NCBI GenBank assembly: GCA_014763905.1
Contig: JACXUN010000048.1
Location: 1-8,936, forward strand
Direction of reading: 5' to 3'
Length of the DNA stretch: 8,936 nucleotides
Source of the DNA: Campylobacterales bacterium
GTDB taxonomy: Bacteria; Campylobacterota; Campylobacteria; Campylobacterales; Sulfurovaceae
Part shown: positions 3,161-8,936 of the stretch, one piece after another
How positions within the stretch are numbered: the stretch's first letter is position 1
Layout: each line of letters opens with the position of its first letter
The notes under the pieces: model-generated
What the model was told of the DNA's origin: nothing
The model's database searches: none
The model's input: the letters and a program-made list of their open reading frames with translations, nothing else
Program-made: the position numbers and the translations under genes

Positions 3161-3181
3161 ACAAAGGGTACTTTAGTACCC
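3159..3181 (-). terminator. Terminator hairpin overlapping the RNase T2 stop codon
   Basis: GGGTACT (3166-3172) and AGTACCC (3175-3181) form a perfect 7-bp stem with a 2-base loop. On the minus strand the stem is followed by TTTGTTT (complement of 3159-3165), giving an intrinsic terminator for the RNase T2 gene. The RNase stop codon (complement of 3173-3175) lies in the loop and start of the second arm. The convergent gene stops at 3160, so the two transcripts end within about 20 bases of each other. Confidence 0.6.
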
Positions 3182-4150
3182 AAATTCATCTACTTTACCT
3201 TTATAACATCGGCTTTTCGGTGTTTCTCCTAATTTTAAGAGTTCCGATAACTGCTCACTGCCACTTCCAAGATGTAGCCAAAGTTCTGTCACCAAACCAT
3301 CCCGACAATTCATAGTCACATGATCTCCGGCTCCTTTGCCAAACTCGTTATCCACTATTTTGCGAATCTCTTTAAGATAAACCGTCTTCCCTATATTTTG
3401 AACAAAATAGGATTGCACTTTGGAACGGTTGAATTGATCCAAAAAACTCAACGCATCACGATAATAGGTATCCGCATCGGTACCGTAGCAGCTTCCGTGT
3501 TTGATCCACTCATGACGATGAAGATTGGCTCGATAGCCCGACATCTTTTGACTCAGTTCGCTTCGGGTTGTTTCAGATAATGTCAACGGTTCGAGTCGAT
3601 TCCACTGTCTATTTTTGTCCATACCGATTGCTTTTTTATCGACCTGACAATATTGATTGTTTTTCGGCTGTGGCCAGAGTCCATGCAAGGTAAAATGCGA
3701 ACTAAAGAAACTATCAGCCTGCATTGTTTTACACTCTTTGACTCGATGATGTGTTTCACAAAAAGCATTCTGCCACGACACGGCTAGCAGATTCTGTGGA
3801 CTGGTTTGTTTGGTCTTGGTTTGACTCTTTTCTTGAGAGGCTTGGGACTTGCGATTCAGTGCATTGACCAGACGATAGCCAATTGTCTTGGGTTTCTGGA
3901 AACAACTCTCATCAATCCAAAGTAAAATCGGACGATTTCCTTCGATGAGGGTAAGTACCTGTCCCTCTTTTAGCTCCGTAATCCGATAAGTTTTTCCCGC
4001 TTCGACATTTAATATATCTGCCTTTTGGGTATGTTTTATATCATAATAGGCAGGACATGATGTGGTGGCTTTGAGATAGATTTCCGGATCATCGGCATGA
4101 GATATCCACGGGAGTGCTATCAATAGTGAAGAGAGGAGTAACCTTTTCAT
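3173..4150 (-). CDS. Secreted ribonuclease T2 family protein (RNase I-like)
   Basis: The 325-residue protein begins with a signal peptide (residues 1-19, cleavage after SHA), so it should act in the periplasm or outside. Both RNase T2 active-site segments are present: FTLHGLWP at 153-160 with catalytic His156, and HEWIKHGSC at 213-221 with Glu214 and His218. Such enzymes cleave single-stranded RNA through a 2',3'-cyclic phosphate. The mature part has eight cysteines, consistent with disulfides. Residues 20-90 form an extra N-terminal segment before the catalytic domain, short and strand-rich like an SH3-type module (a guess), then a Lys/Gln/Ser-rich linker at about 100-118. The ATG has AAGGA (complement of 4156-4160) five bases upstream. 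It is a single gene, convergent with 2093-3160. The likely role is scavenging external RNA for nucleotides or phosphate, inferred from the family. Confidence 0.93.
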   Translation of the reverse strand: MKRLLLSSLLIALPWISHADDPEIYLKATTSCPAYYDIKHTQKADILNVEAGKTYRITELKEGQVLTLIEGNRPILLWIDESCFQKPKTIGYRLVNALNRKSQASQEKSQTKTKQTSPQNLLAVSWQNAFCETHHRVKECKTMQADSFFSSHFTLHGLWPQPKNNQYCQVDKKAIGMDKNRQWNRLEPLTLSETTRSELSQKMSGYRANLHRHEWIKHGSCYGTDADTYYRDALSFLDQFNRSKVQSYFVQNIGKTVYLKEIRKIVDNEFGKGAGDHVTMNCRDGLVTELWLHLGSGSEQLSELLKLGETPKSRCYKGKVDEFGY

Positions 4151-4860: not shown

Positions 4861-6084
4861 ATGGCAAAAAAAGAAGTAAGAAAAGTGGTTCTTGCCTACT
4901 CAGGCGGACTGGATACCAGTATCATTTTAAAGTGGCTTCAAGATGAATATCAGTGTGAAGTGGTGACATTTACCGCTGACTTGGGACAAGGTGAAGAGGT
5001 CGAACCGGCTCGTCAAAAAGCTTTGGCTATGGGGATTAAACCGGAAAATATCTTTATCCTAGATCTTCGTGAAGAGTTCGTTCGTGATTTCGTATTCCCG
5101 ATGTTTAGAGCTAATACGATCTACGAAGGAGAGTATCTGCTCGGAACCTCTATCGCTCGACCGCTGATCGCCAAAAAACAGATCGAAATCGCTCGTCAAA
5201 CCGGAGCCGACGGGGTGAGCCACGGTGCAACCGGAAAAGGAAACGATCAAGTACGTTTTGAGTTGGGATATCTGGGACTGCATGGAGATATTACCGTGAT
5301 CGCACCATGGAGAGAGTGGGATTTGAACTCTCGTGAAAAACTTTTGGCATATGCCGAAGCTCACGGTATCGATATCAGCAAGAAAAAACAGGGACAAGCC
5401 TCTCCCTACTCAATGGATGCCAACCTGCTTCATATCTCGTATGAGGGATTAGTACTGGAAGATCCAAGCCGAGAGCCAGATGAAGCGATGTGGCTCTGGA
5501 CAACGGCACCGGAAAATGCACCAGATGAGCCGGAGTATATCTCTATCGAGTATAAAAACGGTGATCCGATTGCCATTAATGGGGAAGCGATGTCTCCGGC
5601 AACCATTCTGGCAACCTTGAACCAATACGGGAATAAACACGGAATCGGACGGGTTGATATCGTAGAAAACCGATATGTCGGGATGAAAGCACGCGGATGT
5701 TATGAGACTCCGGGTGGAACCATTATGCTCAAAGCCCACCGTGCGATTGAGTCTATTACTTTAGATAGAGAAGCAGCCCACCTCAAAGATGAGTTAATGC
5801 CACGATACGCTTCACTGATCTATAATGGATACTGGTGGTCACCGGAGCGTGAAATGCTTCAAGCAGCTATCGATGCGACCCAAAAAGAGGTAGAGGGAAC
5901 CGTACGACTCAAACTCTACAAAGGTAACGTCATGGTAGTCGGTCGTGAATCAGAAAAATCTCTCTTCTCTGAAGCCCACTCAACATTTGAAGAGGATAAT
6001 GTATACGATCAGAGTGATGCCGAAGGATTTATCAAGCTCAATGCTCTTCGATTAATGATCGCCGGAAAGAAGAAAAAAGCTTAA
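4861..6084 (+). CDS. argG: Argininosuccinate synthase
   Basis: This 407-residue cytoplasmic enzyme joins citrulline and aspartate with ATP to give argininosuccinate, the penultimate step of arginine synthesis. The N-terminal ATP-pyrophosphatase loop AYSGGLDTS is at 12-20, the second family signature [12 protein letters not shown] at 122-133, and conserved blocks GTSIARP (95-101), [14 protein letters not shown] (from 182) and YETPGGTIM (about 281-289) are intact. The length is normal for the family and no key residue appears missing. The ATG has AAGG (4851-4854) six bases upstream and a good promoter before it. No other arginine genes are nearby, so the gene stands alone. No terminator hairpin was seen in the 44 bases after it, so some read-through into the next operon is possible. 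Confidence 0.98.
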
Positions 6085-6128: not shown

Positions 6129-7082
6129 ATGTTTAGTTTTATAAACCTGCTCCAATCTCTTGCAAATAGAATGAAGAAAAACAAAGGGCTTTGGTTCACA
6201 ATGCTCACACTTCTTTCAACTGTCGGTATCATCTTGTCAATGTTTCTCATCAACTACATGAGCAGTAACGTAGCTCATAAAATATATATGAAAATCCACA
6301 GAGTCAATGCAACCCATTTAGAAAACATTTTAGACCAAAAATATGACACCCTGCTCTCGATCAGTGATATTTTGGCGATCCAGCCTGAAATCGCAGCAAA
6401 TATAAAATCGAAATCAGACAAATCTATCAACAACTATTTAGAAAGTGTACAAACTACTATAAACAAAACTTTAGGCAGCGATCCTGTTCTCGTACATTAC
6501 TATGCAAAAGATTTCACAGCTACAAAATCTGAAAACTTTAAATACGCCAACATAGTTATGGCATCACAAACTTCTATTTCGGGTATAGTCGTCAATAAAA
6601 TCGGAACAAGAATTATCGTTATGACCCCCGTTATGGACAACAACGAAACCATAGGGGTAATCGAACTCTCTCAAGATATCTCAAGTGTTAAAAATGATTT
6701 TGCAAAATTTGGTAAAGACTTTGTATTTTTAATTGACAAATCACAACTTCCATTTATCGATCTCTCATTTAAACAAGGGATGCTTGAAGATATAAATGAA
6801 CAACTCAAAATCTTTTTTCATCAATACGATGCAGGATTTTATACTTATTTGACACATATAGATTTTGTACAACTCAATCAGGACAAATTTCATGTTGACA
6901 AGTCTTACTATATAGATACGACTGAAGCTTTAGATATTGACGGGAAAAACATCGGGCAATTTGTGATCGGTGAGAGAGGTGCACAAGAGGATTCATTTGT
7001 AACTATCACACAAGATCTTATAAAGTCAGTTACAACTGTTGCGCTTGGACTTGTTATATCACTCATCTTGTTCATGTTTTAA
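6129..7082 (+). CDS. Membrane protein with periplasmic Cache-like sensor domain and no output domain
   Basis: The 317 residues read as a short cytoplasmic N-terminus with basic residues, a first membrane helix (about 22-44), a large periplasmic domain (about 45-296) and a second helix (about 298-317) that ends at the stop codon. The domain starts with a long helix (HRVNATHLENILDQKYDTLL), as in Cache sensors of chemoreceptors and kinases. Residues 115-205 follow the dCache_3-type pattern: a YYAKDF strand, then SGIVVNKIGTRIIVMTPVMD, NETIGVIELSQDI and FVFLIDKS. The segment DIDGKNIGQFVIGE before the second helix is also typical. There is no HAMP, kinase, methyl-accepting, GGDEF or other cytoplasmic part, so a signal would have to pass through the membrane to a partner, probably the channel protein encoded 9 bases downstream. 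Start supported by AAGGA nine bases upstream. Ligand unknown; Cache assignment rests on pattern only. Confidence 0.82.
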   Translation: MFSFINLLQSLANRMKKNKGLWFTMLTLLSTVGIILSMFLINYMSSNVAHKIYMKIHRVNATHLENILDQKYDTLLSISDILAIQPEIAANIKSKSDKSINNYLESVQTTINKTLGSDPVLVHYYAKDFTATKSENFKYANIVMASQTSISGIVVNKIGTRIIVMTPVMDNNETIGVIELSQDISSVKNDFAKFGKDFVFLIDKSQLPFIDLSFKQGMLEDINEQLKIFFHQYDAGFYTYLTHIDFVQLNQDKFHVDKSYYIDTTEALDIDGKNIGQFVIGERGAQEDSFVTITQDLIKSVTTVALGLVISLILFMF

Positions 7083-7091
7083 GGGATCAAA

Positions 7092-8642
7092 ATGAAACGT
7101 CTAAAGATCATTAAGTCTTATCTTGTTTTATGGTTGTTCATCTATTTTATGATCTATTCAAATTTTGATGAAGTAGTTATATTTTTCAGCTCGAGTCTTT
7201 CGTTTAACATTGCTGTTTTAACACTGCTTATCATCGGTATTATAGTTATTATGCGTTCTACTATCAACTTGGTTATGCTTGCGGGTACTTTTGGAACTTT
7301 GGCTTATAAAAAAGAAAACTTGAGTTTTTACCTTCAAGGGATTGATAGGATTATGCCTGCAAATATTGCCCACATGTTTCACTCAAGGGCTGAAAAAGGT
7401 GTACTTTTATTTACATCCGAAGAGTCTCGTGCCGTGATCGATTGGATCGAAGAAAGATTTTCCCACCAAAGCAGATATATCAATTATTTTGTTGGTACGG
7501 TTTTAATGATCGGTCTTCTGGGAACTTTTACGGGTCTTCTTGTAGCAATCGATGAGATGGGAAGAATTATTCTCTCTTTAACGGGAGATATCGATCTTGG
7601 TGAAGTTATACGCGGATTTTCGGGTCCTCTTGGCGGTATGGCTGTTGGTTTTGGTTCTTCACTTTTCGGTGTTGTTGCAGCTATTATCATGGGTGTTATG
7701 GGATATATACTCAACAAAAACCAAGAGATTCTGATCGAAGGTGTAGAGGACTGGCTCAAGGGCAAAATTATCGATACGCCTAGTGGTAATACCGGTGGCG
7801 GAATGTCTGTTGCTGTCTCTGCTGAAGGGGGTCAACTTCCTGAACAAAGAAGTTCTTTTATGGATGTTTTTGTTGACACTATCGGTTCACTTACTAAAGA
7901 GATGTCAAACATAGCCAAAACAAATGACAGACTGCATTCTATAACTATTGCCTCTGTACAAACGGCAAGAGATGAGCATGAACAAAACTATGAACTTTTT
8001 GAAAGGATCAATGAGAATCTTTCAACTATTTCGAGCGTTACTAAAGAAGGGATGCTCAGTACTGGAGAGAAAATTGAGCAGCAGTCATTAGCTATGAGTG
8101 AGCTTTTAGATGTGCAAAAAAATCTTAATGCAAATCTGAAAAATGAGATCCAACTACTGTTAAAAGAGCTCGAAAATGCTCAAAATAACAATACAGCCGA
8201 GATCCAAAAAGTGCAAACTACACTCGTAGATATAGCTACAAAATTAAATACGGAAAACGAAACCCTTGAAAGACTCGAGAAACTTTCAAAAGTAAATATC
8301 ATTGACTTGCGCTCAGAACATAAAACATTGACACAGATAGATGAAACTCTTAAGAAAAATCTTCAAACTCTGCATGAAAGCTTGGCAAATTTAGGTGCAT
8401 CATCCAATAACAACGCAAAAGCTCTCTTGGAAAAATTCGAACAGCAAATCACTCAAGAGATCGAACAACAAAAAATCTATCAAGAGGAACTCCTCAAACA
8501 AAACGAACTGCTCAAGCAGATTGTCGGTAGTTCAAATGAGAACAATGCAACACTCAAAGTAATCGCCGCAAAAGAGCGTGTCAACGTAGATCTTCGAAAT
8601 GCTGAAAAATCGTCAGGATTTTTCTCTAAGCTTTTTAAGTAG
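7092..8642 (+). CDS. MotA/TolQ/ExbB-type proton channel subunit with long coiled-coil tail (ZorA-like)
   Basis: The 516-residue protein has membrane helices at about 8-22, 38-68, 130-155 and 180-207. The last two carry the MotA/ExbB signature: GLLGTFTGLL (141-150) and GPLGGMAVGFGSSLFGVVAA (178-197), with small and hydroxyl residues lining the expected ion path. Residues 72-128 form the cytoplasmic loop between helix pairs. A glycine-rich linker (about 229-248) leads to a Gln/Asn/Glu/Lys-rich region, about 255-500, expected to be mostly coiled coil and strongest around 445-478. The C-terminus ends in an aromatic, basic FFSKLFK. MotA and ExbB lack such a tail; ZorA of Zorya defence systems has one, projecting from a five-subunit channel into the cytoplasm. 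The AAGGGA ribosome binding site (7081-7086) overlaps the previous stop codon, and the partner gene follows after 8 bases. Probable role: the stator or channel part of an ion-driven motor. ZorA identity is inferred, not proven. Confidence 0.85.
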   Translation: MKRLKIIKSYLVLWLFIYFMIYSNFDEVVIFFSSSLSFNIAVLTLLIIGIIVIMRSTINLVMLAGTFGTLAYKKENLSFYLQGIDRIMPANIAHMFHSRAEKGVLLFTSEESRAVIDWIEERFSHQSRYINYFVGTVLMIGLLGTFTGLLVAIDEMGRIILSLTGDIDLGEVIRGFSGPLGGMAVGFGSSLFGVVAAIIMGVMGYILNKNQEILIEGVEDWLKGKIIDTPSGNTGGGMSVAVSAEGGQLPEQRSSFMDVFVDTIGSLTKEMSNIAKTNDRLHSITIASVQTARDEHEQNYELFERINENLSTISSVTKEGMLSTGEKIEQQSLAMSELLDVQKNLNANLKNEIQLLLKELENAQNNNTAEIQKVQTTLVDIATKLNTENETLERLEKLSKVNIIDLRSEHKTLTQIDETLKKNLQTLHESLANLGASSNNNAKALLEKFEQQITQEIEQQKIYQEELLKQNELLKQIVGSSNENNATLKVIAAKERVNVDLRNAEKSSGFFSKLFK

Positions 8643-8650
8643 GCGCATAA

Positions 8651-8936
8651 ATGGCAAAAAGATGTCCTGAAGAGTTCAATCCATGGCCACCATTTGTGGA
8701 TATCTTTGCGTCTGTAATCTTGGTTATGATGCTCTTTTTACTCATCACCATCGTAAACATCGGTTACTACGCTCAATTTAAGTACAAAGTGTCATACACG
8801 GCAAGTACCATTACACAAGCACCTATACAACCTGAAGATCAGACAAAAATTCAAGAAACAAAAAAAGAGTCTGAAAAAACAAAAGAAGAGGAAGCAGAAG
8901 ATAGTTTTTCTTTTCATAAGATCGTTGCTCCTGTCC
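8651..8936 (+). CDS. MotB/ZorB-like motor partner, N-terminal part (3' partial)
   Basis: The first 95 residues are visible; the frame is still open at the window edge. The short cytoplasmic N-terminus contains NPWPPFVD, followed by one membrane helix (about 15-38, rich in V, L, M, I). Asp17 sits at the start of the helix where MotB, ExbD and ZorB carry the proton-binding aspartate. After the helix comes a Lys/Glu-rich linker (about 65-85), as expected before a periplasmic, often OmpA-like peptidoglycan-binding domain, which would be outside the window. AGG at 8641-8643 overlaps the stop codon of the channel gene and gives a ribosome binding site seven bases before the ATG, so the two are translationally close. 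Together they form a plausible MotAB/ZorAB-type pair. Whether an OmpA domain or defence genes follow cannot be seen. Confidence 0.8.
   Translation, partial: MAKRCPEEFNPWPPFVDIFASVILVMMLFLLITIVNIGYYAQFKYKVSYTASTITQAPIQPEDQTKIQETKKESEKTKEEEAEDSFSFHKIVAPV

Follow-up and report, generated by a model that had tools for sequence, protein, structure and literature searches.

Among the described systems closest to the locus reported here is SiiA-SiiB of Salmonella pathogenicity island 4 (SPI4), a MotAB-type pair that, according to excerpts of two sources (PMC6272769, PMC12607715), is encoded together with the TolC, HlyD and ATP-binding cassette (ABC) partners of a giant secreted protein. In the excerpt of the second source, a 2025 review, deletion of siiA and siiB is reported to leave the secretion of SiiE into the supernatant unaffected, and the use of the proton-motive force by SiiAB for control of the giant adhesin is called unclear (PMC12607715). 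A giant adhesin exported by type I secretion is likewise held or released by LapD-LapG, which controls LapA-type adhesins (excerpt of PMC6272769), and in Zorya phage defence the ZorAB motor pair combines a long cytoplasmic tail with an Asp in the membrane helix of the B protein and a peptidoglycan-binding domain (excerpt of PMC11890865). Here we analysed the window, an entire contig of 8,936 nucleotides (C234, GenBank JACXUN010000048.1) from the draft genome of a Campylobacterales bacterium (GCA_014763905.1; 1.75 Mb in 364 contigs), at whose right end three genes, called the trio below, encode a short Cache sensor, a channel protein A of the MotA/TolQ/ExbB type and its partner B. Relative to SiiAB, the novelty is a Cache sensor gene added to a secretion-linked motor pair, and we regard it as highly probable that the trio forms such a motor with its sensor. 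Searches of the open-licence literature returned no paper joining SiiA, SiiB, type I secretion and MotAB and none combining Zorya terms with SiiB, and among the matches listed no title or abstract opening named a Cache sensor together with a secretion motor.

The three open reading frames (ORFs), predicted with a simple caller of our own, lie on the + strand at 6129-7082, 7092-8642 and 8651-8935 with spacers of 9 and 8 bases, in agreement with the operon described in an earlier note on this DNA. A scan of species genomes yielded 52 named loci, all from genomes bearing Campylobacterota (or Epsilonproteobacteria) names. B always comes directly after A, and in 51 of them the sensor comes directly before A, the remaining locus being cut by a contig end. 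The three-gene synteny that the earlier note suggested looking for in other Campylobacterota is found throughout these loci, and its view that the sensor belongs with the motor pair is borne out by the distribution of the genes in the order, where A has a strong match in 46 of 398 genomes (and a weak one in 5 more) and strong sensor matches occur in exactly the same 46, none carrying one alone at these cut-offs. The sensor profile at E ≤ 0.001 matches 187 of the 398 genomes because Cache domains are common. The strong/weak cuts were set after viewing the lists, where scores drop from 160 to 21 bits for A and from 157 to 116 bits for the best sensor hit per genome, and the first looks behind them scored only some of the candidates; the co-occurrence gives a Fisher p of 2e-61 in a test that ignores kinship. 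Sensor and A are at most 60 bases apart in 37 genomes and 628 to 5632 bases apart in the other 9. Moreover, in 6 of 20 separately fetched loci (three of them on contigs as long as those of named loci: L101/L057, L102/L015 and L115/L034) the sensor gene stands just before an RTX gene, still within the cluster. Since the sensor stays in the cluster even where the order changes, the trio is a unit that is kept together despite differences in gene order.

The genes around the trio in relatives were clustered, and the cluster assignments were verified by family scans of representatives only. Among these representatives are an outer-membrane protein of the TolC type (OEP), an HlyD adaptor and an ABC transporter of the LssB type, which at 684 bits falls short of the model cut-off of 693. 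Large RTX proteins are also represented, one with at least 3068 amino acids and 49 repeat stretches within those 3068 residues; two scanned members of another cluster (c10) reached 17.9 and 27.4 bits, the RTX cut-off being 23. A TolC-cluster gene is present in 47 of the 52 named loci, and among the five others one contig ends after B and four have a gene of the RTX cluster c11 after B. ABC-cluster and HlyD-cluster genes occur in 28 and 27 of the 52, respectively. The 20 further loci present the same picture: TolC adjoins B in 19, 12 have both ABC and HlyD genes, and 18 have an RTX-cluster gene. Judging from these gene families, the trio in relatives likely belongs to a type I secretion locus for giant RTX proteins, which are putative adhesins with predicted secretion. 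Many loci also encode a GGDEF-EAL protein that matches LapD weakly. In many of them it stands after TolC and is followed by a protein of cluster c7 and a Sel1-repeat protein (for example L038 14291-16465, L039 14202-16358 and L055 16071-18230); in the sole GGDEF-EAL protein scanned with NCBIfam, the LapD match is far under the cut-off. The c7 proteins were considered as LapG candidates and set aside, as family scans gave them no family over a cut-off, and no LapG-type protease was recognised among the neighbour proteins scanned. TolC-type proteins of 806-1388 amino acids with a SPOR domain were noted at L038 11871-14291, L017 11858-14929 and L055 11908-16074. All three TolC proteins of the Arcobacter type that were scanned have this SPOR domain, which may anchor them to peptidoglycan.

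The first gene (6129-7082, +) encodes a sensor of 317 amino acids, delimited from its ORF, Pfam match, hydrophobic stretches, structure model and fold matches. Residues 64-282 (6318-6974, +) match Pfam dCache_3 over the cut-off (E = 1.5e-7, 31.7 bits vs 25.7), as expected from the Cache-like protein named in the earlier note. The layout is an N-terminal membrane helix, a periplasmic double Cache domain and a second membrane helix at the extreme C-terminus (residues 300-317, 7026-7079, +, placed by alignment conservation) with the stop immediately after it. In an alignment of 35 of the 51 sensor-bearing loci plus the window, all 36 rows have two hydrophobic stretches and an identical end column, and end right after the second membrane helix. 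This final helix is the most conserved segment measured (mean majority 0.82, entropy 0.58), and the dCache_3 domain is the least conserved of the sensor segments measured. The structure model has a pLDDT (predicted local distance difference test) of 87.9, and in fold matches of the predicted structure the membrane-distal fold resembles CitA/DcuS. The nearest relatives examined are chemoreceptors, of which six, taken near the top of the weaker hits rather than as the strict top six, were compared. The dCache_3 chemoreceptors of the same order share the periplasmic dCache_3 domain between two membrane helices, whereas the sensor ends in the second helix and in a Pfam scan shows no HAMP domain, no methyl-accepting chemotaxis protein (MCP) signalling domain and no cytoplasmic output domain. 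By its domain content, the sensor is a chemoreceptor-like protein without the signalling half.

Channel protein A (516 amino acids; 7092-8642, +) was assigned from its ORF, Pfam and a tree. As a protein it scores 17.8 bits against Pfam MotA_ExbB, below the cut-off of 22.9, and in the genome search, with neighbours in frame, it passes at 24.1 bits. It has four hydrophobic stretches, the last ending near residue 209. The last two lie in the channel core defined by alignment and hydrophobicity (residues 132-209; 7485-7718, +), in which Thr145, Ser189 and Ser190 are invariant in 17 rows. Beyond it lies a tail of about 300 residues (210-516; 7719-8639, +), probably cytoplasmic by the topology we infer, whose profile weakly matches helical and coiled-coil chains. 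The MotA/ExbB type and the coiled-coil character given in the earlier note therefore stand, the latter by weak matches, but the tail length of 260 residues does not. Across the 52 loci A ranges from 318 to 731 amino acids (the copy in L056 being cut). A conserved end motif of the tail was sought and dropped, being present in only 4 of 52, and so was an inverse relation between the lengths of A and TolC (rho -0.36, p 0.046, measured in those 31 of the 52 loci where TolC follows B and neither gene is cut), which is weak and confounded by clade.

The contig end cuts the ORF of partner B after its first 95 residues (8651-8936, +). A metagenomic sibling, whose A (P0001) is 98% identical to that of the window, provides a near-identical B of 238 amino acids (P0186), with two differences counted by eye in the first 95 residues, and it was used in place of the residues that the window lacks; the longest contigs of P0186 and of P0001 are equal in length, at 6929 bases. 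Where the membrane helix begins, Asp17 (codon 8699-8701, +) is invariant in the 52-row alignment, so the Asp pointed out in the earlier note is a fixed feature of the family; the motif around it is present in 48 of 51 B frames, the remaining 3 being called from a later start. B alignment A2 covers 20 of the 52 loci and the window. In the predicted structure B comprises a membrane helix, a long linker modelled at low confidence and a fold of the peptidoglycan-binding kind.

This layout of helix, linker and peptidoglycan-binding fold is the one described for SiiA (excerpts of PMC6272769 and PMC12607715), which is the best structural match of the modelled B; PDB sequence searches found no sequence match. 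The trio differs from SiiAB by the added Cache sensor gene and the long tail of A. The substrates also differ, SiiE having immunoglobulin repeats and the substrate candidates of the trio loci being RTX proteins, and SiiAB is found in Salmonella, the trio in Campylobacterota. With the LapD-LapG system many loci share a LapD-like GGDEF-EAL protein in addition to the giant adhesin, whereas the trio itself is without a cyclic di-GMP domain. On balance we favour the reading that the trio is the sensing and driving part of RTX type I secretion, in which the Cache sensor would switch a SiiAB-like A-B motor that holds or releases the secreted protein; whether the sensor gates the motor directly is evenly poised. 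In such a scheme, a periplasmic ligand would alter the Cache domain, and the change would travel through the second membrane helix of the sensor, which would pack against A or B within the lipid bilayer. Ions would then flow past Asp17 of B, turning or straining the A-B motor, and the motor, tethered by B to peptidoglycan, would act on the TolC conduit and thereby decide if the RTX protein is kept on the cell surface. On the model of SiiAB, an active motor would correspond to the retained protein. In a bolder form, which we put forward only tentatively, a chemoreceptor without its cytoplasmic half has been rewired within the membrane to an ion-driven motor, so that an outside ligand would directly switch proton or sodium flow and the motor would mechanically hold or free the giant adhesin within its secretion channel: a chemical clutch for the attachment of cells, with no kinase or protease. 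If true, this would mean that a receptor passes its signal straight to an ion channel via membrane helices. The presence of the sensor with the motor in every genome with a clear match to either (46 of 46) offers a testable input for motors of the SiiAB kind, and suggests that environmental Campylobacterota may sense a chemical to choose between sticking and leaving.

Several results from the genome of the window itself limit the reading as RTX secretion. In its draft no match to the TolC of the relatives (in a search without a positive control), no LssB transporter over the cut-off and no RTX repeats were found, and the complete system is seen only in relatives. This absence may be a gap, since the contig breaks off within B and the draft consists of 364 pieces. 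On another contig of this genome (C250) a possible LssB fragment was set aside, as it lies between frames that we read as purL-like and tRNA-nucleotidyltransferase-like.

A motor that helps the giant RTX protein to be exported or to cross the outer membrane, with the sensor tuning export rather than retention, would be expected to show the same linkage to TolC, ABC and RTX genes, and a SPOR domain such as that of the three scanned Arcobacter-type TolC proteins could tie the channel to peptidoglycan. Yet the ABC transporter already gives energy, and, as far as the analogy with Salmonella holds, the unaffected SiiE secretion reported in the excerpt of PMC12607715 speaks against such a role, so that we consider an export motor unlikely. 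Less probable still is a sensor with no direct action on the motor, whose partners would be chemoreceptors or the LapD-like GGDEF-EAL protein encoded at the locus, and these would carry the signal. The chemoreceptor kinship of the sensor and the frequent GGDEF-EAL neighbour would suit such pairing, but many sensor loci, including those nearest to the window (L008, L009, L013 and L014), lack the GGDEF-EAL gene in the stretch shown, whereas A is present in all 46 sensor genomes; moreover, the sensor has no cytoplasmic part and its last membrane helix is its most conserved segment.

The earlier note had suggested either a ligand-sensing envelope machine, which fits the linkage of sensor and motor, or a new Zorya-related defence type, which does not hold up. 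A Zorya-like phage defence with an added sensor would account for the long tail of A and the ZorB-like layout of B, and in PADLOC the window A matches ZorA models weakly (25.1 bits; 34.4 and 27.2 for two relatives) and B matches ZorB1 weakly (13.5 bits). However, five ZorA controls of the same order have best scores of 85-216 bits. In a PADLOC scan of ten proteins (nine neighbours from four relatives' loci and one B; the window contig ends inside B), no ZorC, ZorD, ZorE, ZorF or ZorG was found among the neighbours, and the genes conserved next to the trio are those of type I secretion, in place of the defence effectors of Zorya (cf. the excerpt of PMC11890865). A 421-residue ankyrin-repeat-like neighbour in L012 matches the candidate defence model PDC-M72A (206.7 bits), but this protein was seen in that one locus only and otherwise matches the general Ankyrin model (96 bits); a 590-residue neighbour in L010 matches Cas10 models at 21 bits. 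Neither was counted as defence linkage. In a channel-core tree (49 rows, 128 columns), the A rows form their own group (93/89), set apart from ZorA by a 98/97 branch and from flagellar MotA, ExbB and TolQ by a 96/89 branch, and long branches meet in this tree. Its group labels are our own and partly checked, NCBIfam scoring two of the three checked ExbB-labelled rows best as tolQ. Among 53 loci examined for it, L068, L122 and L137 gave no frame and L067, L069, L144 and L146 were left unassigned; L156, L164 and L168, as well as L024, L030, L038 and L055 among nine further A rows, were dropped because the core pattern missed them. A Zorya reading is accordingly very improbable. The least probable reading is an ordinary flagellar MotAB, ExbBD or TolQR pair next to an unrelated sensor, which would agree with the superfamily of A but not with its separate clade outside the branch holding those families, nor with other MotA/ExbB-type genes on other contigs of the same genome and the shared 46 genomes of sensor and A.

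On one such contig (C57, L070), a second MotA-type protein (374 amino acids; 976-2100, -) and a MotB-type protein with an OmpA-like motif (2-970, -) adjoin frames read as mreB/mreC. This MotA-type protein scores 57 bits with ZorA models, higher than the A of the trio, and frames of similar length matching it occur in many genomes of the order.

Upstream of the trio, outside the system, lies argG (4861-6084, +), assigned by family match. Because it is the sole argG match of its own genome and argG is matched in 30 of 34 genomes of the genus, the contig is likely native, and misbinning was rejected. The A of the trio was found in 1 of the 34 genus genomes, and a search of the family matched A in 2 of 175, one of them through the coiled-coil part alone (21.9 bits), leaving one clear case. 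In one genus relative that was read (L005 2799-4218), other genes follow argG and the trio is not in that place. Considering the rarity of A in the genus and family, the native-looking argG and the other genes after it in L005, the trio was probably gained by transfer. After the 98% sibling, the nearest A found, at 73% identity, is in a Sulfurimonas metagenome-assembled genome. The window further encodes an RNase T2 family protein (3173-4150, -) and, at its left end, a 5'-truncated cysteine-rich protein (1-837, +) whose best match, under the model cut-off, is an 8-methylmenaquinol:fumarate reductase membrane anchor.
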